From NCBI RefSeq assembly GCF_902774605.1, contig NZ_CACYJE010000030.1, positions 1 to 38,912 of the forward strand: a stretch of 38,912 nt of DNA. Reading direction: 5' to 3'. The notes under the pieces are model-generated. The model saw only the letters and a program-made list of their open reading frames with translations, was not told the DNA's origin and ran no database searches. The translations under genes and the position numbers were made by a program. Numbering within the stretch: the stretch's first letter is position 1; the number at the start of each line of letters is the position of its first letter. Below are positions 27,728 to 38,912 of the stretch, in pieces. This stretch comes from an uncultured Methanobrevibacter sp. GTDB lineage: Archaea > Methanobacteriota > Methanobacteria > Methanobacteriales > Methanobacteriaceae.

Positions 27728-28041
27728 TTAACCATCTCTACCCCAATAACTCTTTTAATAAGGTCATTTATTTGATCAGATGAACCTTCTGAGGACCCAT
27801 CTTTATCTGGTATTTCAATTATCATTGGTAAAACACTAGAACCAATTTTCCTATTAATATGATTTCTTATTTCATTAGCCATTAATTGGGTAATGATAAT
27901 AATTGAAATTTCATCATCTAAAAATTTATCAAAAGCTGCGATAGCTTCTTCAGGAGTATTAACTACTTCCGCTTGTTTGACACCACCTAATCTAAATCCT
28001 GAAACAGTGTCAATATCACCTATAATTGCTACTGAACTCAT
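27724..28041 (-). CDS. atpF: A-type ATP synthase subunit F
   Basis: A small Rossmann-like shaft subunit, 105 residues, starting [19 protein letters not shown], with [20 protein letters not shown] following and an IPD segment near the C terminus. It sits with D in the rotor. The gene overlaps atpC (four bases) and atpA (four bases), so the three are translated in a chain. Confidence 0.96.
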
Positions 28042-29192
28042 ATTAACATCTCCATGATTTTAGAATTAGGGAAGTCTGCTTCTCTTTTTGCTCTTGCAAT
28101 AATTTTTAAATTCTTAATTTCATTTTCTTTTTGACTTAAATAACCAATAATTGGACCAATTCCTAATGGTTTTTTAGAAGCTAAAGATTTTGAGTAATCA
28201 GAAGCGTATGTGTCTAAAGCCTTTTCGAACACTGCAACTGAACCGGTATCGTTGTATACTGGCATCACGTCAGTTAAAGCTTCAGCATATTTTGTTCCTT
28301 CTAATCCAGAAACTACGTTTGTAACGTCCGGGGATTCCATTAAATCTTTGAGTTTCCATTCACGTAATTGGTATCCTTCTTCTAATATATAAGGAGAGAT
28401 TGCATCATAATCAAGGCCATCTTCTTTTGCCCTTATAATTAGTTTTAGATTAGCTACATCGACTTGTGTTCCCACATATGAGTATAATATCTGTTTGTTT
28501 TCATCGGAAGGAACATCAGTAGAACGTAATAATTTGCCTAAGTAATATTTATCTAAAGCTGATTCTAATGGAAGAATCATTTTAGTATCTTCATATTGTG
28601 GAAGAGCATCTTCTAGTGCTGTTGAATATTCAGTGTTGTCTAAACTTGTTACAATGTCAGTCACGCTTTCGGAGTCTGCCAAGGAATCCAGGTCTTCGTA
28701 CAGTGATCCGCAAGGAATTAATAATTCTCTTGTTTCGTCAGCTGTAAGGCCTACTTCTTTAGCTGTTAAAAGGCTTTTTATGTTGTCGATGTCTGCTTTT
28801 TTAGACATGACATCAAAAGGCTTTTTAATGTCCTTTGGAGCTAATCTTGCAACGAAGTCGTAGGTATTAGCACGTTCAACGTCTAATGCCTTGTCGAGTG
28901 GATATTCATCTAACACGTCAGCATAGTCAGGAGTATTTTTGAGGTAATTCTCAACTTCTTCAACGTTGTTGGTTTCAACAAGTTCAGAAATTTGTTTTTC
29001 ATCAAATAATCTTCCTTTTCTTGCTCTTACTCTTGCACTTGGGTTAAGATAAGGATAAATGTCCAAAATTGGTCTGGATGTAATGATTACAACTACTGCA
29101 CCAACAACAAGTATTGCGATTACACAGAACACTAGGAATGTTTCTTGTGTAAGCCCAACAGAACTTATTAATGTTGCAATTCCATCTGCCAT
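28038..29192 (-). CDS. atpC: A-type ATP synthase subunit C with N-terminal membrane helix
   Basis: Subunit C (AC39/d-like) is the cone that couples the shaft to the c ring. 384 residues. The core begins near residue 45 with YPYLNPSARVRARKGRLF and contains three repeated helical units, with LKLIIRAKEDGL and LKIIARAKREADFP at the inner-helix positions. Ahead of the core is an extra hydrophobic helix (about residues 18-39, TFLVFCVIAILVVGAVVVII). Minimal subunit C proteins lack this, so it may anchor the cone in the membrane or sit in the c-ring pore. From memory a similar extension occurs in other Methanobacteriales; I could not check that. Confidence 0.93.
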   Translation of the reverse strand: MADGIATLISSVGLTQETFLVFCVIAILVVGAVVVIITSRPILDIYPYLNPSARVRARKGRLFDEKQISELVETNNVEEVENYLKNTPDYADVLDEYPLDKALDVERANTYDFVARLAPKDIKKPFDVMSKKADIDNIKSLLTAKEVGLTADETRELLIPCGSLYEDLDSLADSESVTDIVTSLDNTEYSTALEDALPQYEDTKMILPLESALDKYYLGKLLRSTDVPSDENKQILYSYVGTQVDVANLKLIIRAKEDGLDYDAISPYILEEGYQLREWKLKDLMESPDVTNVVSGLEGTKYAEALTDVMPVYNDTGSVAVFEKALDTYASDYSKSLASKKPLGIGPIIGYLSQKENEIKNLKIIARAKREADFPNSKIMEMLI

Positions 29193-29207
29193 AATTTATC
29201 CTCCTAA

Positions 29208-29825
29208 TTATTTAAATAATATTTCAGCAACTTCACTACGTAAGATACTTTTAAATCTTTCTAATCTAGCTTCAATTGTATTATTTACTTCAATATCTCC
29301 ATTAACGGTTTTTAAAATAGCTCCGCCCATAGCGTCAATTGGTTCACCTAATGTGAAAGTGACATCTTCTAACTGGAAGGAGTCTGAACCATTTGCAGAT
29401 AATTCGCTTTTAAGTTGATTTGTATCAGCTTCATTTAATTGGATAATTAAATCTTTACTACCAATTTCATCAGCAGCTTCTTTAATCATTTTACTTAAAG
29501 AATCTTCATATTCTTCATCACCAGAAGAAGCTTTAACTTTTAATTCTCCAATAGCTTGATTGAAAGCAGCTTCTATAACTTCTTCTTTAGCGCCTAATTC
29601 TGCTCTACGAGCATTCATCTTAGCTTCAGAGATAATTTGCTGATATCTCATATCAGATTGTTTTTTACCATTTTCTAAAATTTTAGTTTTTTCGGCTTCT
29701 GCAGTTTTTTCAGCATTTGCTTGAATTGCTGTAACTTCAGCGTTGGCATCTTGAATGATTACATCAGCTTTCTCTTGGGCTACAGACATTATACTTTCAA
29801 CAATTTTGCTTGTGCCTGCGCTCAT
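29208..29825 (-). CDS. atpE: A-type ATP synthase subunit E
   Basis: The peripheral-stalk subunit that pairs with H and caps the A1 head; 205 residues. The N-terminal half is a long Ala/Glu/Lys coiled coil (residues 1-100), and the C-terminal half is a globular domain with GGAILKTVNGDIEVNNTIEARLER. GGAGGCAATTT lies before the ATG. Located between atpK and atpC. Confidence 0.93.
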   Translation of the reverse strand: MSAGTSKIVESIMSVAQEKADVIIQDANAEVTAIQANAEKTAEAEKTKILENGKKQSDMRYQQIISEAKMNARRAELGAKEEVIEAAFNQAIGELKVKASSGDEEYEDSLSKMIKEAADEIGSKDLIIQLNEADTNQLKSELSANGSDSFQLEDVTFTLGEPIDAMGGAILKTVNGDIEVNNTIEARLERFKSILRSEVAEILFK

Positions 29826-29838
29826 ATAAATTGCCTCC

Positions 29839-30324
29839 TTAACCTAAGATTCCACCGAATACCATGAGTAAAATAGCAATCAAGAAACCGTAAATAGCCT
29901 GAGTTTCTGGTAAAGCGGAGAAAATAATACCACGAGCAAACATATCATTGTCTTCTACAATTGCTCCTACAGAGGATGCTGCTGCCATACCTTGTCCCAT
30001 ACCGGAACCTAAACCAGCAAATCCGATGGATGCACCTACACCGATAGCAACAATACCTGCTTCGGTAGGTAATCCTTGTCCTCCTCCTAATAATCCGGAG
30101 AATACTAATAATAAGATTGCAACCAAGAAACCGTAAATAGCCTGAGTTTCTGGTAATGCAGAGAAAATAATACCTCTTGCAAACATGTCATTGTCTTCTG
30201 CTACTGCACCGACAGATCCAGCAGCTGCCATACCTTGCCCTAAACCGGAACCTAATCCAGCAAAACCAATTGCTACTCCAGCACCAATAGCTGCTAAAGC
30301 AGTACCTAAAGCAATTTCTACCAT
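29839..30324 (-). CDS. atpK: A-type ATP synthase subunit K (duplicated c subunit)
   Basis: The rotor ring proteolipid. 161 residues form two tandem hairpins (four membrane helices), each with GLGSG-x-GQGMAAA in the first helix and FSALPETQAIYGFL in the second. The essential carboxylate is present twice (Glu59 and Glu140), each with adjacent Thr-Gln and an upstream Gln (Gln30, Gln111). These match the sodium ligands known from Enterococcus NtpK (Leu61, Thr64, Gln65, Gln110, Glu139), so sodium coupling is likely, with two ion sites per chain. The two DNA halves are also strikingly alike, including 33 identical bases. A 71-base gap separates it from atpI, and AAAGGTGA precedes its ATG. Confidence 0.96.
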   Translation of the reverse strand: MVEIALGTALAAIGAGVAIGFAGLGSGLGQGMAAAGSVGAVAEDNDMFARGIIFSALPETQAIYGFLVAILLLVFSGLLGGGQGLPTEAGIVAIGVGASIGFAGLGSGMGQGMAAASSVGAIVEDNDMFARGIIFSALPETQAIYGFLIAILLMVFGGILG

Positions 30325-30395
30325 ATTTATTCACCTTTGAAATAATATTGATTTTTTTAAATTTTATTTTAAGATATTAAATGAAAAATTTTTAA

Positions 30396-32396
30396 TTATT
30401 TAATTTTAGTAAATGTTCTTTTTGCTTTGAAAGCTTCGAATTTACCTTTACCTTCCATGAAGAATTGTGAGAAGAACTCTACATAGTTAAGACGTAAAGC
30501 GTTAATAAATGCACCTAATACTTGGAAAGCGAAGTTTGCAATATGACCAAATATGAATACGAATACTGCAAGCACAACACCTGCAAATGGAATCATTTGA
30601 TCTAACATTTGTGCTAAGATGTTTACTGTCATAGCAATACCACCAGTAGCTAAACATAATGCTAAAAGACGAGCGTAGGACAATACATCACCCATGTAAC
30701 CGAAGATATCCATTACACCGTATGCACCGTTAGCCCATACTAACATTCCAATAGTTGCAATTACTAAAATTCCTCCAAGGACCATTCCAATCATGCCTAT
30801 TGCAGGCATCATGAATCCTAAGGCAAGTAAGATAATACCAGCTTCAAATACAAACCAACAAATTTGAGAACCGATAGCTTCTTTCTTGTTTCCGTATCTT
30901 AAGTTGTTGATAGCACCTAATATGAATCCTATATTGGTGTAGATAAGACCTACAATGATAGCGATTATCAAGATAGTGTCTGGGTGTACGAACGCTTCAA
31001 CTGCAGGGATTACAGTTGGTAAACGGAAACCAGCTATTCTTTCTGGGAAGTCCCCAATAAAACCATTGGTTATCAAACCTAGTACAACGGCCCACAGACC
31101 TGACCAGATTAAGATCCAACCGAATGAATGCATTGATTCTTTAACTTTACCCATACCTCTTAACAGGACTACACCAATAGCTGCTACAACTAAACCGTAA
31201 ACTGCATCGGTTAAACAGAAACCGAAGAAGAATGGGAATGTGATTGCAACAAATATTGTTGGGTCCATTGCATTGTAACGTACCGGAGAGTACATATCAA
31301 CAAGGTATTCGAAAGGTTTTGCATACCATCCGTTTTGTTGTAGAACTGGAACATTTTCATCATCAGTACCTTCAACCTCTATTGTTTCAAAGGCACAATG
31401 TCCGTCAGAACTTTTTTCAACCAATTGTTCAACCTTTTCGGTATCCTTTACAGGCACCCATGCTTCAAGAACGTAAGCGTCTTTGGTTTGAACAAAAGAG
31501 GAAAGGATTTCGTTCTTTTCTTTTTCATTTTCTAATTGTTCTTTGAGTGCTAATATATCATCGTCCCATTGTTCCGCAACTGCCCTTAATTCTGATTTGA
31601 CAGATGCTCTTTCGGATTCAATGGTTAAGAGTCTTGAATCAGCATTTGAAATGATTTGTTGAGGGGTTCCTTCAACGTCACCTACTTCAATTTTCTCAAA
31701 GTCAAACTTACGAAGTGTTGAATAAACATCATCACTATATTCATTTAATGTTACCACTACGATGATTTCTCCCTCTTTATCATCGCTTGGAACAGTAAAT
31801 ATTTCTAATTCATCAGTCAAGTTACTTAATTCATTTTTGATTTCTGAAGCAGATCCAGCATTAATCCTTCCAACAGTAGTAGAAGTGTACTTAGAATCTT
31901 TTAAGTCAGCTAAATTCATGTCAAAATTGGATAAGCGATTAGCCAAACTTTTATTAGACTGTAGTTCACTTGTTTCAGCGTCGAGTGCGGCCAGTTTTCC
32001 TTCAATCACGCTTGTTTTAGCTTCTACCTGGGATAAAGTGTCTTCAGCTTTTGCAATAAAAGCTTCAGTGTCTAGTTTCTCTACTTCTTTTTGAACAGGT
32101 AAATCTGGACTAATAAAAGACATTAAAGTGTCCTTTAACCCATGGCCTTCTGATAAAGAATTTCCTAATAGTTCAGATATACCGTTTGTTTTCATGAGAA
32201 GTGAAGATAACTTACCAGTGTAGGGAGTGGCTTTTGAAGGAGTTACTAACTCCGCTAATTCAGGATCTTGCTGAATGCTGTCAGAAATATCACTGATTTG
32301 TATGAGTCCTGACTCGTGGAGAGCGTCCACTGTAGGTGCTACATACTTATCCAGTGTAACAATTCTAATTTTACGCATTCTAGCTGTCTTGAACAT
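30396..32396 (-). CDS. atpI: A-type ATP synthase subunit I (a subunit)
   Basis: The membrane stator that provides the ion half-channels. 666 residues: an N-terminal cytoplasmic half (about 1-360) with coiled coil that joins the peripheral stalks, and a C-terminal membrane half with about eight helices. The conserved essential arginine is Arg635 in INALRLNYVEFFSQFF, which faces the Glu of the c ring. Also typical are PTIFVAITFPFFFGFCLTDAVYG and YLLSYARLLALCLATGG-like VLSYARLLALCLATGGIA. It follows atpH by 11 bases. Confidence 0.96.
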   Translation of the reverse strand: MFKTARMRKIRIVTLDKYVAPTVDALHESGLIQISDISDSIQQDPELAELVTPSKATPYTGKLSSLLMKTNGISELLGNSLSEGHGLKDTLMSFISPDLPVQKEVEKLDTEAFIAKAEDTLSQVEAKTSVIEGKLAALDAETSELQSNKSLANRLSNFDMNLADLKDSKYTSTTVGRINAGSASEIKNELSNLTDELEIFTVPSDDKEGEIIVVVTLNEYSDDVYSTLRKFDFEKIEVGDVEGTPQQIISNADSRLLTIESERASVKSELRAVAEQWDDDILALKEQLENEKEKNEILSSFVQTKDAYVLEAWVPVKDTEKVEQLVEKSSDGHCAFETIEVEGTDDENVPVLQQNGWYAKPFEYLVDMYSPVRYNAMDPTIFVAITFPFFFGFCLTDAVYGLVVAAIGVVLLRGMGKVKESMHSFGWILIWSGLWAVVLGLITNGFIGDFPERIAGFRLPTVIPAVEAFVHPDTILIIAIIVGLIYTNIGFILGAINNLRYGNKKEAIGSQICWFVFEAGIILLALGFMMPAIGMIGMVLGGILVIATIGMLVWANGAYGVMDIFGYMGDVLSYARLLALCLATGGIAMTVNILAQMLDQMIPFAGVVLAVFVFIFGHIANFAFQVLGAFINALRLNYVEFFSQFFMEGKGKFEAFKAKRTFTKIK

Positions 32397-32407
32397 ATAA
32401 TCTCACA

Positions 32408-32722
32408 CTACAAAATATTTTTGACAATTATTGAAGCAGCTTCATCTACATTTGCCATAGCCTTGTCCTTTAAAGCTTGAACATCTTTTTTGGACTGCGC
32501 AGCAATAGATTGAGCCTCTTTTTTAGCTTTATCTTCTGCATCAAAAACAGTATCTTTCGCGTCGTCTTCTGCTGCTAGCTTAGCTTGGGAAATAATTTCT
32601 TCAGCTTTAACTTGTGATTCAGCGATTAAGTCCTTGGATTGGGACTCTGAATCAATAATGAGTTGTTCAGCATCAGATTCAGCTTTTTTTATCATTGCGA
32701 TTGCGTCTGATATCTCTGCCAT
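32408..32722 (-). CDS. atpH: A-type ATP synthase subunit H
   Basis: The peripheral-stalk partner of subunit E, 104 residues, almost entirely alpha-helical and charged with heptad Ala/Glu/Lys patterns (AESDAEQLIIDSESQSKDL). First gene of the operon; promoter and GGTGA Shine-Dalgarno lie directly upstream. Confidence 0.92.
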   Translation of the reverse strand: MAEISDAIAMIKKAESDAEQLIIDSESQSKDLIAESQVKAEEIISQAKLAAEDDAKDTVFDAEDKAKKEAQSIAAQSKKDVQALKDKAMANVDEAASIIVKNIL

Positions 32723-32755
32723 AATTAATCACCATGGTGTACTTATTTTTGTTGT

Positions 32756-32771
32756 GTAATATATATATCTT
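32756..32771 (-). promoter_or_regulatory. promoter of the atpHIKECFABD operon
   Basis: On the minus strand AAAGATATATATATTAC gives a purine-rich B-recognition element followed by a long TATA box, ending about 33 bases before the atpH ATG, with GGTGATTAATT just before the ATG. Confidence 0.6.
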
Positions 32772-32887
32772 TTACTATTCAATTTTGATTAGACTTCGTA
32801 AAATTGTATTTTGAATTAAAAAAAGTATTTAAAAAATAATAATTACATGAAAAAATTTTATAAAAAAAAGAATAAAAGATAAATAAA

Positions 32888-33292: not shown

Positions 33293-33622
33293 ATGGAAAG
33301 AGCAGTTTGGATTATTTTAAATAAGAATTTTTCACTTACCCTTGACGGCGAAATGCTGAACGGCAAGGTGGTCGACATGAAATTCTCACCTGGCAATGAC
33401 TTGTGGACCGGTGAACTTCCGCGCTTGGGTTTCAGCGATGAGAATGTTCAAAACGATTATGATGAGTTCATCACTGACATATCGACACTGTTTTCAGAGC
33501 CGACTGTTGACGAGGTCTTGATTAATGCGAAACTCGGTGAGGAATCCGAGTACCTCAACTGTGAAAACCCATTGCTGATAAGGAAAATTGAAGAATACAG
33601 CGTTGATGAAATCATAGGATAG
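33293..33622 (+). CDS. hypothetical acidic soluble protein
   Basis: A 109-residue acidic protein without membrane helix or cysteine pair, beginning MERAVWIILNKNFSLTLDGE and ending in an Asp/Glu-rich helix. Family not recognised. I choose the ATG at 33293 over an upstream in-frame TTG at 33275 because a TATA box at the leaderless distance precedes the ATG. Its 3' end overlaps the convergent gene by 11 bases. Confidence 0.65.
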   Translation: MERAVWIILNKNFSLTLDGEMLNGKVVDMKFSPGNDLWTGELPRLGFSDENVQNDYDEFITDISTLFSEPTVDEVLINAKLGEESEYLNCENPLLIRKIEEYSVDEIIG

Positions 33623-33950
33623 CTGTCGCCTTCATCATGACCTCATCCATTGTGTTGAACTGCAAATCCTCACCGTCCTCCCCTTTTGTTTCAGTCGTAA
33701 TCAAAACATTTGGAGATGCCCACAGGAAGGAATATGTGAAATAGATTACATTTATGAATATCGCAACGGAGAGAAACATCAGCGCGACAATCAAGCATAC
33801 CACATGAATCAAGACATTGCCGTATCTTCTGCGCTTCATCAATATGAAGTTATCCTGTTTTTCTATTGTTTTAAATTTATTTTCTAACAATTCCGCAGAT
33901 ATCCTATCCATATCCTCAGAATCGTTAGCCTTTAAGATAAATAAACTCAT
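33612..33950 (-). CDS. membrane protein with N-terminal soluble domain
   Basis: A 112-residue protein: residues 1-42 are a small soluble domain (SLFILKANDSEDMDRISAEL...), followed by KRRR and one or two hydrophobic helices (about 46-80), then a polar tail. Family not recognised. The ATG lies three bases after the nitroreductase stop, so it is probably the last gene of the right-edge operon. Confidence 0.65.
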   Translation of the reverse strand: MSLFILKANDSEDMDRISAELLENKFKTIEKQDNFILMKRRRYGNVLIHVVCLIVALMFLSVAIFINVIYFTYSFLWASPNVLITTETKGEDGEDLQFNTMDEVMMKATAIL

Positions 33951-33953
33951 TTT

Positions 33954-34463
33954 CTAATCCATGTATACAACGAATTCATCCAATTCTTTTCTAGGAGTGT
34001 CCCTAGGCTCGGCATTTCCGTAACCTAACGGTGTGAACAATACAACTTCCTCGTTCTCATCAAGGTTGAGGAATTCATGAGCCCTGTACTTTTTGAAGGC
34101 CCCAATATAGCATGTTCCAAGCCCAACGTCTGCGGCTGCAAGAATCATGTGGTCCATCACAATAGTTGCATCAATGTCTGCAATGTTCTTCTGGTCCCAT
34201 GGCCTGGTCCATGCCTTATTCTTTATTCCAACAACTGCCAGGACCAATGGCGCTTCCACGAACCATTTTGCAGAGTAGATTTCAGACAATTCGTCTTTAT
34301 ACTTTTTAGTGTCAATCACATAAACTTTAAAAGGCTGTGCGTTAACGCCTGTTGGCGCTATGGTTGCCGCTTTTAAAACGTATTCCAATTTTTCCTTTTC
34401 AACTTCCTTGTCAAGGTATCCCCTTACACTGTATCTTTCATTTATCACGTCAATGAATTCCAT
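33954..34463 (-). CDS. nitroreductase family protein
   Basis: A 169-residue FMN-dependent nitroreductase, single-domain type that works as a homodimer. The FMN-binding N terminus is RYSVRGYLDKEV, followed by APTGVNAQPFKVYVI and, in the second half, AAADVGLGTCYIGAF and a C-terminal LGYGNAEPRDTPRK, the family's usual L-G-Y-P-x-E element. GGGAGGAAAA lies inside the 3' end of the citrate-synthase-like gene, one base before this start, so translation is coupled. As part of the acid operon it may supply or consume reducing equivalents, but the substrate is unknown. Confidence 0.88.
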   Translation of the reverse strand: MEFIDVINERYSVRGYLDKEVEKEKLEYVLKAATIAPTGVNAQPFKVYVIDTKKYKDELSEIYSAKWFVEAPLVLAVVGIKNKAWTRPWDQKNIADIDATIVMDHMILAAADVGLGTCYIGAFKKYRAHEFLNLDENEEVVLFTPLGYGNAEPRDTPRKELDEFVVYMD

Positions 34464-34464
34464 T

Positions 34465-35265
34465 TTATTTTCCTCCCATGTACTCTATGTCATCAAGGTC
34501 GCAGAATCTTCGAAATTCCTCTTCATCCATATGTTCCTCATGAATATGGGCGATTATTCCAGGCACCCTTCCTATGATGAACACTCCCAATCCCAATTCA
34601 GGGTCAAAACCCAGATCAGACAGGATTGCTGCGTTTGCACCATCCACATTCAGCCTTACGCCTTTTTTCTCATGCACCAAGTCTTGCAAAGCCAATGCCA
34701 GTTTAATATGAGGGCCTATGAAACCTTCTTTGATTGCAACCTCTATCAGTTTATCGGCTCTCGGGTCGGTACTGTGATACCTGTGGCCGAAACCAGGAAC
34801 CTTCTTTCCCTTAATGACATAATCCTTATAGATGTCTATGGCCAAGCTTGCGATTTGCTTATTGTCAATGTCCGGATCATCAATTAAGCGTGCGGAGTTA
34901 ATGCTTGATTGGTATAGCTCCATTGCCTTTTCAATGGCGCCGGCATGCTTATGGCCAAATGACAATAATGCCCCGGCCACGGCTGAATTTACTGGAGAGC
35001 CTGATGAGGCAATCAATCGTGCAGTCTGAGTGCTTGGAGGGGTTACGCCATGGTCGCAGAATGAAACCAGGACATGATTGAAAATCCTGCTTTGCTTGAC
35101 TGACGGCAATTTACCCTTCAATAAAAGGTAAACCATGTCACTATAGCGGATTTTTTCAATTAAATTCCTTTGATTGTAACCTCTGGTAACCAGCTTATCC
35201 TTTTCAACTTTTGTTATGGCAGTTTTTAAAGACTTTGGATTGACTTTAAAATTATTTTCTTGCAT
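34465..35265 (-). CDS. short citrate synthase / citryl-CoA lyase-like protein
   Basis: A 266-residue member of the citrate synthase fold, lacking the long N-terminal domain of full citrate synthases and thus closer to short citryl-CoA lyases. The catalytic triad positions are filled: His107 in GHKHAGA, His161 in GFGHRYHSTDPRA and Asp208 in RLNVDGANAAIL; the CoA-side GRVPGIIAHIHEE is present. Members condense or cleave CoA thioesters of citrate-like acids. Neighbours (fumarase-like, PrpD-like) imply a substituted citrate or malate skeleton. A separate promoter may lie in the 52-base gap upstream. Confidence 0.85.
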   Translation of the reverse strand: MQENNFKVNPKSLKTAITKVEKDKLVTRGYNQRNLIEKIRYSDMVYLLLKGKLPSVKQSRIFNHVLVSFCDHGVTPPSTQTARLIASSGSPVNSAVAGALLSFGHKHAGAIEKAMELYQSSINSARLIDDPDIDNKQIASLAIDIYKDYVIKGKKVPGFGHRYHSTDPRADKLIEVAIKEGFIGPHIKLALALQDLVHEKKGVRLNVDGANAAILSDLGFDPELGLGVFIIGRVPGIIAHIHEEHMDEEEFRRFCDLDDIEYMGGK

Positions 35266-35298
35266 TTCTAAAACCTTTAACCTTAATCTTAAATACTT

Positions 35299-35311
35299 TT
35301 ATAATACTATA
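35299..35311 (-). promoter_or_regulatory. possible internal promoter in the acid operon
   Basis: Minus-strand GTTTATATAGTAT lies 34-46 bases before the citrate-synthase-like ATG, in the only sizeable gap inside the downstream half of the operon. Confidence 0.35.
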
Positions 35312-35317
35312 TAAACT

Positions 35318-36190
35318 TTATAACTTTATTGTAGCAACGCGGGGCTCCACAAAACATGACGGCCTGATTGACACTATCCTAACGCCGCTTGCCCTTTGAT
35401 TGCCAATATTCAAATAAGTGCCTAAGACAGTAGTCCTGCCGCCGAAGCCTAACGGCCCGATATTGGTGTTGTTTAACCTTTCAGTAATTTCCTTTTCAAC
35501 GCTGCTTTGATTATCAAGGCTTCCATAAGCAATCGATTTGAGCAGTAGTGAAGTGGCCTCGTAATGTGTTCTTCCAATGCCTATCGAAGGTATCGATGGA
35601 GTGCAGCCCAACATTTTAAGGGATGATTCCAGCCATTCGCAGGCAGTGCCTATCACATTATCGAATGAACGCTGATGGTAAACCCTATATGTCTTGGACC
35701 TGATTTCAGGACCTCCCCCTTCAAGCAGAAGATGAACGTTCAGCGTGTCCTCGGAAATATCTCTCTTATAGGTGGATTCGTCATTGGCATTGTCGATTAG
35801 CACTGATGCGGGGCGAAGCATTCCTGGCTTTTCATATAATCCTTGGCTTTGCTCTATTCTTTCAACGGCATTTCCTTTAACTGCCATTGGGCGTGCGGGA
35901 AGATTGTTCAATCCGTCATATATCCCCTCATGAATCTGGTTCAGCATTTCACCGGTGATTTGTCTTTTCGAACCGATTTCAATTATCACATGAGGAATTC
36001 CAGTGTCATCACATAATGGGAATCTGTTTTTCTCTGCGACTTGATAGTTTTCCAGAATTATTTCCAATGCCCATTTAGCATTCTCATCTTCCTCTCTTGA
36101 TATGGCATCTTTTAAAGCTTTATGCTTGTCTTCGGATAGTGTGGTTGAAGCTTTAATGATTGTTTCGCTAACTTCTTCGGATATGCTCAT
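35318..36190 (-). CDS. class I fumarase alpha-type protein without beta partner
   Basis: A 290-residue protein of the class I fumarase/tartrate dehydratase alpha family, which holds an oxygen-sensitive 4Fe-4S cluster for hydration chemistry. The three cluster cysteines are conserved at the right spacing: Cys60 in PLCDDTG, Cys196 in LGCTPSIPSIGIGRT, and Cys279 in IRPSCFVEPR; NIGPLGFGGRTTVLG is the family motif before the last. No beta (swivelling) subunit is encoded in the window, so either it is elsewhere or this protein acts differently. I choose the ATG at 36190 (GAGTGAT before it) over a frame start at 36262, which would overlap the upstream gene by 68 bases. Confidence 0.82.
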   Translation of the reverse strand: MSISEEVSETIIKASTTLSEDKHKALKDAISREEDENAKWALEIILENYQVAEKNRFPLCDDTGIPHVIIEIGSKRQITGEMLNQIHEGIYDGLNNLPARPMAVKGNAVERIEQSQGLYEKPGMLRPASVLIDNANDESTYKRDISEDTLNVHLLLEGGGPEIRSKTYRVYHQRSFDNVIGTACEWLESSLKMLGCTPSIPSIGIGRTHYEATSLLLKSIAYGSLDNQSSVEKEITERLNNTNIGPLGFGGRTTVLGTYLNIGNQRASGVRIVSIRPSCFVEPRVATIKL

Positions 36191-36194
36191 ATGA

Positions 36195-37097
36195 TCACTC
36201 TGGAGTTGCCAGATCACTTGATTTGTCTGGTGATGCGATAGCTTCTGGATAGTATTCATCAATCATTCTTTTAACAAGTTTAACCTGTTTTATGCGTGCA
36301 ACCGCTTCTGCTTCGGTAGTGTCCCAATTATGATTGGCGGCGACTGACCCTCCGGTTTTAAGATAGACTGGAGAAGCCACCTTAATGAAGCTTGGCACCT
36401 CATAATGTCTTATGAATCCTCCTGTTGATTTCGGGTTTTCAGTATGCAAGTCCAATGACATGTCAGTTGCTTTCCTGATTGCCGCAATCATTGGTATCTG
36501 AAGGTCTCGAACAGGGTTTAAAGAGTTTAAACCATTGGCCTCCAATAGCTTTGCTGATGCCGGATTGGAATGGCCTGCATGTGCGGATAATTTGAAATGG
36601 GCATTTTGTGGAATTTCGCCTTCACTTCTCATTTGGTTTAAAACCCATAGCAATCCCTCATCATACAATAATATTCCGCGAACGCCAAGCCTGCATGCTC
36701 TTTTAACATCCTCTATTGCATAGACCAGATTATCATAGCCTCTAAGGCGATAACCGATCCTGCTTCCTTCCTTGGTGTGAACTGTAGCGGAAGTGTCGTA
36801 TGTTGCTCTTGGACCTACTGAAAGGAACAATTCGCATCCGTAATCCTTTGCAAGCATGACCATTTCAGTGATTTCCTCATCAGTGAGCATCATTATTCCC
36901 TTTGTCTGGGTTACCCTGTGAATGAACACGTCATTTTCCTTGGATGCCTCAAGCAATGCCCTCATTGTCTTTGGAGACTGTATTCCTGGAACTTCAAAAC
37001 GATACTGTCCGCCATCAGCGAATCGCTTAGGTGAATTGTAATCTTTTGAAGCATCTTCAATACCAATTTTTTTAAGGAATTCCATTGTATCATCCAT
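36195..37097 (-). CDS. U32-like TIM-barrel protein
   Basis: A protein of about 300 residues that resembles the peptidase U32/YegQ-type TIM barrel group: LAKDYGCELFLSVGPRA, a beta-strand/turn GVRGILLYDEGLLWVLN and SAHAGHSNPASAKLLEANGLNSLNP. Despite the name, characterised U32 proteins mostly act in RNA hydroxylation or ring modification with iron-sulfur partners; here no cysteine cluster typical of those is obvious, and the setting suggests acid metabolism instead. ATG 37097 has AGGAG at suitable spacing; ATG 37106 is adjacent to that element. It follows the PrpD-like gene directly and precedes the fumarase-like gene by four bases. Confidence 0.68.
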   Translation of the reverse strand: MDDTMEFLKKIGIEDASKDYNSPKRFADGGQYRFEVPGIQSPKTMRALLEASKENDVFIHRVTQTKGIMMLTDEEITEMVMLAKDYGCELFLSVGPRATYDTSATVHTKEGSRIGYRLRGYDNLVYAIEDVKRACRLGVRGILLYDEGLLWVLNQMRSEGEIPQNAHFKLSAHAGHSNPASAKLLEANGLNSLNPVRDLQIPMIAAIRKATDMSLDLHTENPKSTGGFIRHYEVPSFIKVASPVYLKTGGSVAANHNWDTTEAEAVARIKQVKLVKRMIDEYYPEAIASPDKSSDLATPE

Positions 37098-37109
37098 GAA
37101 TCTCATCTC

Positions 37110-38516
37110 CTAACCGTTTAATTTTCGAACGACATATTTCATCGTATACTCTTCAAGTGAATCGATCACTGTCAAATTGTTGATGTCATATTGAGGGTTC
37201 AGTCCCTTGAACTTGTCAATGAGGTCGCGCAGCTGGAACGGGTTTTCGAAATCGCCCTTTGGAAGCAGGGTGATGTTCTGGAACACTCCGTTTCTGAAGT
37301 GCTCATCCAGTTTTATAATGACGTTTGAAGGTCTCTTGTCCGGATAGAGTTCGTTTAACTTATCATCAGATAATAACAGCATGTTATTGACGAGGTTCTT
37401 GATGCTGTTAACCTTATCGACAGTCGAGTAGTTATCCAAAAGGCCGAATTCTATCAGTTGATTAATCTCATCTACACTGACTTCCCCGACAACCAGCGCT
37501 ATTGCCACTGCATACGGGAGGCTTTGCTTGAGTTCCTCGAGGTTTTTGGGATTGAAGTTATTGTGGTCAGCGGCGATTGCATAAGTCTTGACTGCCACAT
37601 TCTTGATATGGTCATATTCCTCTCCAATGCTTGCCTTCAGCTTCAGTGCAGTGTCTATTGAGGAGTGCAGGTGCCTGCAGAATGGGTATTTCTTAAAGTA
37701 TATGTCTCTCACGCGCACTTTGCCAACGTCTTTAAGTGCATCTTCAAGTGAGAAGCTTTCTGCATCATAATCATCATCATAGACCATTGTTTTAAGAAAT
37801 CCTTCTTTTCCTTCAAATATTGTTCCGCTTCCTGTGAAGCCGTTTCTTGCAAGGAATGCTGATAGCAATCCATTATACACTGCTTTTCCTGCATGCAATG
37901 ATTTGCCCATAGATCCGCCATGGTCTGATTCGAGAAGTCCGGCCGCTTGTGTTCCGCATAATCCCAATGCATTTAATATTTGAGTTTCATCAAGCTTAAG
38001 GAGTTTGGATGCAACCACTCCAGAAACGAAAGTACCTACTGTTCCGGTCGTGTGGAATCCCTTGTTTCTGTGTTCGGGATTGACTATTTTGCCCAGAAGT
38101 ATTCCCACTTCATAACCTACCATGACTCCCTCCAGGAATTCCTTTCCGCTTAAATCATAGCTTTCGGCAATGGCAAGTGCGGTTGGGAAAATCACCGCTC
38201 CCAAATGGATTTGAGCTCCCCTGTGACCATCATCCAATTCCAGCGTGTGAGCAGCCACACCATTTACGAATGCTGCATTCAAAACATCTGTTTTTATCCC
38301 CGTTCCAATAACAGTTGCCTTTAAATTAGAATTCTCGTTAGTTGAAAATATTTCTCCAATGGTGTTTAATGCTATTTTTGAAGCATCCTCCTTGATTCCG
38401 CGATAGGTTACTCCAAAAAAGTCCAGGAATGCTGCTTTTACAGTAGTGATGGATTCCACAGTTGCCTGTTCATAGCGATAGTTTGATATAAATTTAGAAA
38501 TATTTTGTAAAAACAT
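37110..38516 (-). CDS. MmgE/PrpD family protein (2-methylcitrate dehydratase-like)
   Basis: A 468-residue protein of the MmgE/PrpD family, which includes 2-methylcitrate dehydratase, cis-aconitate decarboxylase and iminodisuccinate epimerase. Seen: the N-terminal helical domain, the active-site stretch LELDDGHRGAQIHLGAVIFPTAL (in part: DDGHRGAQIHLG), a GKSLHAGKAVYNGLLSA block (Gly-Lys and His near the site), and YFKKYPFCRHLHSSID, the K-x-Y-P-x-C-x-x-x-H family motif. Length is typical. A GGTG element lies before the ATG. It is flanked by a transporter-like gene upstream and the U32-like gene downstream, with a three-base gap to that stop. Substrate not deducible; a tri- or dicarboxylic acid is likely. 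Confidence 0.9.
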   Translation of the reverse strand: MFLQNISKFISNYRYEQATVESITTVKAAFLDFFGVTYRGIKEDASKIALNTIGEIFSTNENSNLKATVIGTGIKTDVLNAAFVNGVAAHTLELDDGHRGAQIHLGAVIFPTALAIAESYDLSGKEFLEGVMVGYEVGILLGKIVNPEHRNKGFHTTGTVGTFVSGVVASKLLKLDETQILNALGLCGTQAAGLLESDHGGSMGKSLHAGKAVYNGLLSAFLARNGFTGSGTIFEGKEGFLKTMVYDDDYDAESFSLEDALKDVGKVRVRDIYFKKYPFCRHLHSSIDTALKLKASIGEEYDHIKNVAVKTYAIAADHNNFNPKNLEELKQSLPYAVAIALVVGEVSVDEINQLIEFGLLDNYSTVDKVNSIKNLVNNMLLLSDDKLNELYPDKRPSNVIIKLDEHFRNGVFQNITLLPKGDFENPFQLRDLIDKFKGLNPQYDINNLTVIDSLEEYTMKYVVRKLNG

Positions 38517-38601
38517 AAAACACCCACTAATAGTATTATGTAATAGGTAGTATTAAAATAGTTAAGTTATGAGTTGAAACAATATTCAATGCCCAATTCA
38601 A

Positions 38602-38912
38602 TTATGCGATTGGAACCCCTGTTAAAACTAGAACGATGTGCGCTACAATTGCCGCTCCATAGTATGTTGATGCAATAACAAGCACTGTTATTACGATTGC
38701 TCTCCATCCCAATGCCTTGAATTCATTCCAGCTTTTGCCCATTCCAATACCAACGTATGCCAGAAATACGGTCACTATTGACAAAAGTTCAACTTGAGAC
38801 ACATACTTCAAAACGAATTCTGATGTCGGCATGCCTGGAAAAGCCAAGATAATGCCGATTACGCTTATGTAAAGGATTGATGAAATGTTGAATGGCAGGT
38901 ACCTCTCCATCC
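38602..38912 (-). CDS. C-terminal part of a transporter-like membrane protein
   Basis: Open frame running off the right window edge: about 102 visible residues with three to four membrane helices and a short charged turn GKSWNEFKALGW between them, typical of the last part of an anion or solute transporter. The first visible Met (38910) may be internal, since the frame is still open at the edge. A carboxylate permease or DUF3100-type membrane protein would fit the context, but family assignment is uncertain. It ends 85 bases before the PrpD-like start. Confidence 0.6.
   Translation of the reverse strand, partial: MERYLPFNISSILYISVIGIILAFPGMPTSEFVLKYVSQVELLSIVTVFLAYVGIGMGKSWNEFKALGWRAIVITVLVIASTYYGAAIVAHIVLVLTGVPIA

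Follow-up and report, generated by a model that had tools for sequence, protein, structure and literature searches.

What acid would a run of citrate- and fumarate-type genes handle in a methanogen, and would it be broken down or made? The window, meaning the whole stretch of DNA analysed here, is contig C30 (38,912 nucleotides) of a 2.14-Mb genome, and its sequence stops at position 38912, inside the first gene of the run. An earlier note on this DNA described seven same-strand genes and proposed that they serve either the uptake and breakdown or the synthesis of an unusual citrate-like acid. All seven reading frames were found on the minus strand. They are listed below in the direction of transcription, together with one intergenic gap.

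38602..38912, minus strand: C-terminal part of a DUF3100/LysO-like transporter, truncated where the contig stops and outside the conserved unit
37110..38516, minus strand: MmgE/PrpD-family dehydratase-like protein, core gene 1, 468 aa (PF03972/PF19305)
36195..37106, minus strand: U32-like TIM-barrel-type protein, core gene 2, 303 aa, the signature of the set (sub-threshold PF01136)
35318..36190, minus strand: fumarase-alpha-like subunit (alpha2), core gene 3, 290 aa, ATG at 36190 (PF05681, E 1e-52)
35266..35317, minus strand: gap of 52 nt before the citryl-CoA-lyase-like gene, with a TATA-like AAAGTTTATATA (direct sequence reading)
34465..35265, minus strand: citryl-CoA-lyase-like protein of short citrate-synthase fold, core gene 4, 266 aa (NF004866, 417 bits)
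33954..34463, minus strand: nitroreductase-family flavoprotein, lineage-specific neighbour, 169 aa (PF00881, E 8e-28)
33612..33950, minus strand: small membrane protein, lineage-specific neighbour, 112 aa (no family matched)

Gene layout and protein families

The earlier note had called several of these neighbours coupled or only bases apart. Between the PrpD-like gene and the small membrane gene the gaps are 3, 4, 52, 1 and 3 nt in order, the 52 nt lying before the citryl-CoA-lyase-like gene, and there are 85 nt on the upstream side of the PrpD-like gene. The TATA-like AAAGTTTATATA in the 52-nt gap may be an internal promoter ahead of core gene 4, and because of it the genes possibly form two transcription units. 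The families assigned at first reading mostly stand (PrpD, fumarase alpha, citryl-CoA lyase and nitroreductase), but the barrel protein matches Pfam U32 (PF01136) with 18.2 bits, below the gathering cut-off of 22.4. The supposed membrane transporter fragment is indeed the C-terminal end of a protein of the DUF3100/LysO-like kind, but it does not belong to the conserved unit. For the small membrane protein, no family was found in Pfam and NCBIfam profile searches.

The PrpD-like protein matches its Pfam family with an E value of 4e-71, and its nearest solved relatives are IDS-epimerase and the Bacillus IRG1/aconitate decarboxylase (E ~1e-34). The His and Lys residues typical of the family are kept, with H98, H104, H155, K205, H282 and H284 invariant. 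The likeness of the set to the methylcitrate cycle (PrpC-PrpD-PrpB) lies in the pairing of a citrate-synthase-fold enzyme with a PrpD-family dehydratase for a substituted citrate. However, the set contains a short enzyme of the citryl-CoA-lyase type and not PrpC, the PrpD-like protein scores only 35-49 bits against PrpD equivalog models whose cut-offs are 458-950, and neither methylisocitrate lyase nor full-length methylcitrate synthase is found in the conserved neighbourhood. The earlier view that this is not the methylcitrate cycle is borne out by these differences.

The citryl-CoA-lyase-like protein exceeds the cut-off of NF004866 (PRK06224.1-3) with 417 bits against 245, and its best solved relative is the citryl-CoA lyase 6hxp (E 1e-53). 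Its citrate-synthase triad (H107, H161 and D208) is invariant, which suggests that the enzyme is able to link an acyl-CoA with a 2-oxo acid or to split the two apart. This relative and the full catalytic triad are what it has in common with the citryl-CoA lyase (CCL) of two-step citrate cleavage in Aquificales, from which the set differs in having no adjacent citryl-CoA synthetase and in forming a class-specific operon with dehydratases instead. The fumarase-alpha-like subunit, alpha2, is 29% identical to the canonical fumarase alpha of the genome, and its invariant C60, C196 and C279 are at cluster-binding positions. It is probably not a fumarase proper, because it reaches only 121 bits against the fumarate hydratase equivalog PRK06246 (cut-off 276). 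Judged from sequence, the catalytic residues are intact in these three enzymes.

The U32-like protein is the most conserved member of the set, with ~95 invariant residues among 20 sequences. It resembles the U32 family (UbiU/UbiV, TrhP and RlhA) through a weak PF01136 match common to 19 of its 20 members (best E 8.6e-05). Two points set it apart from that family: the window protein falls below the cut-off, and no cysteine that could hold an Fe-S cluster is invariant. Single-sequence and profile searches against solved structures returned no relative, and an AlphaFold model made without an alignment had a pLDDT of 46.

A four-gene core in Methanobacteria

We read the genes around the U32-like gene in a diverse sample of 20 genomes. 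The order and strand of the PrpD-like, U32-like, fumarase-alpha-like and citryl-CoA-lyase-like genes are kept in 15 of the 20 Methanobacteria loci, in addition to the window, and these 15 loci range from what we take to be Methanothermus and Methanothermobacter to Methanobrevibacter. Such an arrangement of four genes is far beyond chance. The unit of seven genes proposed earlier shrinks accordingly to a conserved core of four, as the transporter, nitroreductase and small membrane genes are lineage-specific. The latter two have the same distribution, adjoining the core in some genera only, on the Methanobrevibacter side, and the DUF3100/LysO-like transporter gene lies upstream of the core in several genera, fewer than those with the nitroreductase and small membrane genes. 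Some genera have genes for a cation transporter and a DNA glycosylase inserted between core genes; these look unrelated.

Unrelated phylogenies of the genes had been named beforehand as an outcome that would undo the idea of a pathway. The pairwise distances of the four core proteins are in fact correlated (Spearman 0.71-0.82, values to which host-species relatedness alone contributes), as they should be if the genes were inherited vertically together, so that outcome did not occur.

The U32-like gene was detected in 129 of 152 Methanobacteriota genomes, 91 of which are of good quality. Of these 91 genomes, 78 contain the gene: all 78 outside one genus, g12 in our set, and none of the 13 within it (0/13). 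All 20 genomes of g12 lack the gene, as do three draft genomes that are 67-72% complete, which makes 23 genomes without it. We take genus g12 to be Methanosphaera, with M. stadtmanae DSM 3091 presumably among its members. A search of named methanogens recovered the gene from four of four Methanobacteriaceae and from none of 46 genomes belonging to other orders. With this 4/4 result as the control, it was likewise missing from the Methanosarcina phylum (393 genomes) and from the Methanococcales phylum (36 genomes). In total, ~475 archaea outside Methanobacteriota were searched, and none had the gene; a search of viral contigs for relatives also returned none. Because the gene occurs throughout Methanobacteriota except in one genus, and in no other archaea searched, we regard the set as a core, class-specific pathway and not as a niche catabolic operon. 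The class-wide pattern argues for the biosynthesis of something common to the class. This is a real, uncharacterised and class-specific pathway; its enzyme families are known, and the pathway itself would be new.

The second fumarase beta subunit and mfnA

The earlier note had suggested extending the region to the right in search of a CoA-transferase or fumarase beta gene. The contig stops at 38912 and allows no extension. No CoA-transferase gene was found, but a beta gene was found elsewhere in the genome. The genome contains exactly two fumarase alphas, the canonical one on contig C20 and alpha2 in the operon, and exactly two fumarase betas, the canonical one on contig C4 and a divergent one, beta2, on contig C8. 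Beta2 is 36% identical to the canonical beta of the genome and keeps the motifs RD, PT-S and GKG. Orthologues of beta2 (E < 1e-40) are present in nearly all operon-bearing genomes, the exceptions being fragmented drafts. Nineteen Methanosphaera genomes have the canonical beta only (E 1e-13 to 1e-17), and all Methanosphaera genomes with any fumarase alpha (18/18) carry the canonical alpha only. In this genus, alpha2 and beta2 have disappeared along with the U32-like gene.

We infer from these sequences that alpha2 and beta2 form one Fe-S hydro-lyase. Like the two-subunit Class I (Fe-S) fumarase or tartrate dehydratase, it would have its beta part as a protein of its own and three cluster cysteines in alpha. 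It differs in that alpha2 and beta2 are a divergent, paralogous second pair whose subunits are encoded apart, and in that the canonical fumarase is kept as well, everywhere checked.

The surroundings of beta2 were read in nine genomes, and the positions of mfnA and beta2 were compared across 152 genomes. The conserved neighbour of beta2 is mfnA, which encodes L-tyrosine decarboxylase (TIGR03812, 551-572 bits, cut-off 299). In 13 of the 19 operon-bearing genera, with all four families represented, mfnA precedes beta2 and shares its strand. The two genes are as close as 5 nt in the deepest branches and as far apart as about 1.4 kb in the genus of M. ruminantium. In the genus of the window, beta2 is not beside mfnA and adjoins the genes of 2-oxoglutarate:ferredoxin oxidoreductase and succinyl-CoA synthetase. 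The core operon itself has ATP synthase, TiaS and regulator genes as neighbours, with no mfn gene adjoining among the loci read. The connection between the operon and methanofuran runs via beta2: the operon encodes alpha2, alpha2 would pair with beta2, and beta2 adjoins mfnA. This linkage is a further respect in which the set is unlike the methylcitrate cycle.

A probable role in making the methanofuran cap, and alternatives

Methanofuran takes up CO2 when methane formation begins, and its core is made by MfnA-F. The methanofuran of Methanobacteria carries a tetracarboxylic cap, of which a hydroxylated form has been reported from M. smithii, and other methanogen orders have polyglutamate methanofurans. 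The cap is 4,5-dicarboxyoctanedioic acid, also named 1,3,4,6-hexanetetracarboxylic acid, and it was reportedly the subject of isotope-labelling work by White (1987). In Methanothermobacter, methanofuran bears a terminal 4,5,7-tricarboxyheptanoyl group (PMC13397495). Methanofurans have a common core and unlike side chains. In MFR-a and MFR-c the chain bears terminal residues, and which enzymes introduce these moieties was still to be identified in 2021 (PMC8141765). The MfnA-F enzymes, to which our set is related through the position of beta2, build the core and the first glutamate, and the enzymes for the terminal acid were then unassigned (PMC8141765). Our literature search found no enzyme for the methanofuran cap.

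We lean towards the view, with a little above even confidence, that the four core genes and beta2 serve to make the tetracarboxylic acid with which methanofuran of the Methanobacteria type is capped. The cap pathway fits because the enzymes are of types that condense and dehydrate large polycarboxylates, because they are confined to the class and went missing where CO2 reduction did, and because one subunit gene lies beside mfnA. The distribution of the gene set appears to match that of capped methanofurans, the cap structures being known for few species. More tentatively, and with somewhat less than even confidence, we propose that the operon and beta2 constitute the complete carbon-skeleton pathway to the cap, for which enzymes of the methylcitrate and fumarase types would have been repurposed and joined by a new TIM-barrel enzyme akin to U32. 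The earlier idea of an uncharacterised carboxylate pathway, working by condensation and dehydration and acting in our reading on a tri- or tetracarboxylate, gains support, and of the two roles then considered for it, the synthesis of an unusual citrate-like acid is the one favoured here.

Methanosphaera reduces methanol, not CO2, to methane (PMC10658910). It retains mfnA and mfnB, so core methanofuran genes remain. The loss of the set in Methanosphaera is one evolutionary event, and another function tied to CO2 reduction could explain it. The set might instead supply some other acid specific to the class, with no relation to methanofuran, that CO2-reducing Methanobacteria need and Methanosphaera does not. 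The phyletic pattern would be identical, and the placement of the core operon beside ATP synthase, TiaS and regulator genes, and not beside mfn genes, agrees with this explanation. It is nevertheless unlikely, as the mfnA-beta2 adjacency would have to be incidental while being kept in so many genera across four families, and we know of no other class-specific polycarboxylic acid of Methanobacteria.

The genes might otherwise encode a parallel version of the oxidative arm of the citric acid cycle, in which citryl-CoA would be formed, the PrpD-like protein would act as aconitase and the alpha2/beta2 enzyme as hydratase, leading to 2-oxoglutarate. We consider this improbable. The families suit citrate chemistry, and beta2 adjoins 2-oxoglutarate synthase genes in the genus of the window; however, such a route does not need the class-specific U32-like protein, leaves the Methanosphaera-only loss and the mfnA linkage unexplained, and would operate beside a canonical fumarase that is retained wherever it was looked for.

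The other option of the earlier note, that a citrate-like acid is taken up from the environment and broken down, is very improbable, because the set is class-wide and the transporter is not in the conserved unit. The DUF3100/LysO-like gene upstream in several genera would suit it, but the set is also present in autotrophs of all families, presumably including Methanothermus and M. thermautotrophicus, without a transporter nearby, and universal conservation suits biosynthesis.

Enzymes of the PrpD and fumarase types can use methylated C5 acids. An alternative citramalate/mesaconate branch for isoleucine, which this versatility and the amino acid requirement (L, I) listed for M. stadtmanae (PMC10658910) would favour, is hardly credible, since the set turned up in none of the other methanogen orders searched, many of them isoleucine makers, and the mfnA linkage would again be unexplained.

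If the cap reading is true, it would account for a set of Methanobacteria genes misannotated under the "citrate cycle", and the step, its genes being restricted to the class, would be specific to the main rumen and human gut methanogens. No enzymes had been assigned to the making of the terminal acid in the methanogens that dominate gut and digester, and a defined gene set makes the question testable.

A cap pathway would begin with a condensation of the citrate-synthase type, followed by dehydrations. The citryl-CoA-lyase-like enzyme would join an acyl-CoA and a 2-oxo acid, most likely 2-oxoglutarate, to form a citryl-CoA-like tertiary alcohol. A glutaryl-CoA-like ester and 2-oxoglutarate would give an alpha-substituted citrate with the right ten-carbon skeleton. 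The PrpD-like enzyme would dehydrate the tertiary alcohol, comparable to 2-methylcitrate dehydratase acting on an alpha-substituted citrate, and the alpha2/beta2 enzyme would carry out a hydration or dehydration at a second position. The U32-like barrel may catalyse a further step, of the aldol or isomerase type. A reductase would saturate the double bond, and methanofuran would receive the acid on its gamma-glutamyl chain through a ligase. How these steps follow one another, and exactly which CoA ester takes part, is guesswork. The reductase and the ligase are missing from the four-gene core and beta2; the nitroreductase is a candidate for the reductase, in the Methanobrevibacter-side genera only.

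Integrity and candidate internal promoter of the core operon

The core operon keeps its setting in many genera, with the A-type ATP synthase cluster on one side and, on the opposite side, a gene resembling TiaS and a divergently oriented HTH regulator gene. In the window, the adjoining ATP synthase cluster lies at about 28000-32800. At two draft loci, L046 and L053 (genomes G128 and G005), the U32-like gene is separate from the remaining three core genes; therefore, the operon is split apart in some lineages. Genus g7 has an extra, broken U32-like gene with stops close to the intact copy (G010:C114:5446-5888).

Direct sequence reading found a TATA-like AAAGTTTATATA within the 52-nt gap preceding the citryl-CoA-lyase-like gene (window 35266-35320), which suggests a second, candidate promoter ahead of this gene in the window's genus. 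The corresponding gap is smaller at Methanothermobacter and Methanothermus loci.

Neighbors and length of beta2

In the window's genus, beta2, the second fumarase-beta gene, is divergently oriented next to genes for succinyl-CoA synthetase and 2-oxoglutarate synthase (kor) (locus L194:7900-12485). This proximity hints at 2-oxoglutarate as a candidate substrate. Beta2 has only 134 aa at L195:7095-7520 (G149:C1:1027597-1027998; G149 is presumably M. thermautotrophicus delta-H), compared with about 163 aa in relatives, and the short form may reflect a frameshift, a sequencing error, or a true truncation.

Upstream transporter

The DUF3100/LysO-like transporter was located as follows:
Window 38602-38912, minus strand: C-terminal piece, cut by the contig end
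L203:9633-11032: transporter at a compared locus

It is undivided at locus L054 (one gene, 451 aa) and forms two separate genes in the genome we take to be M. smithii. In the genome that contains the window's piece, contigs C13 and C10 carry two more stretches resembling this transporter.
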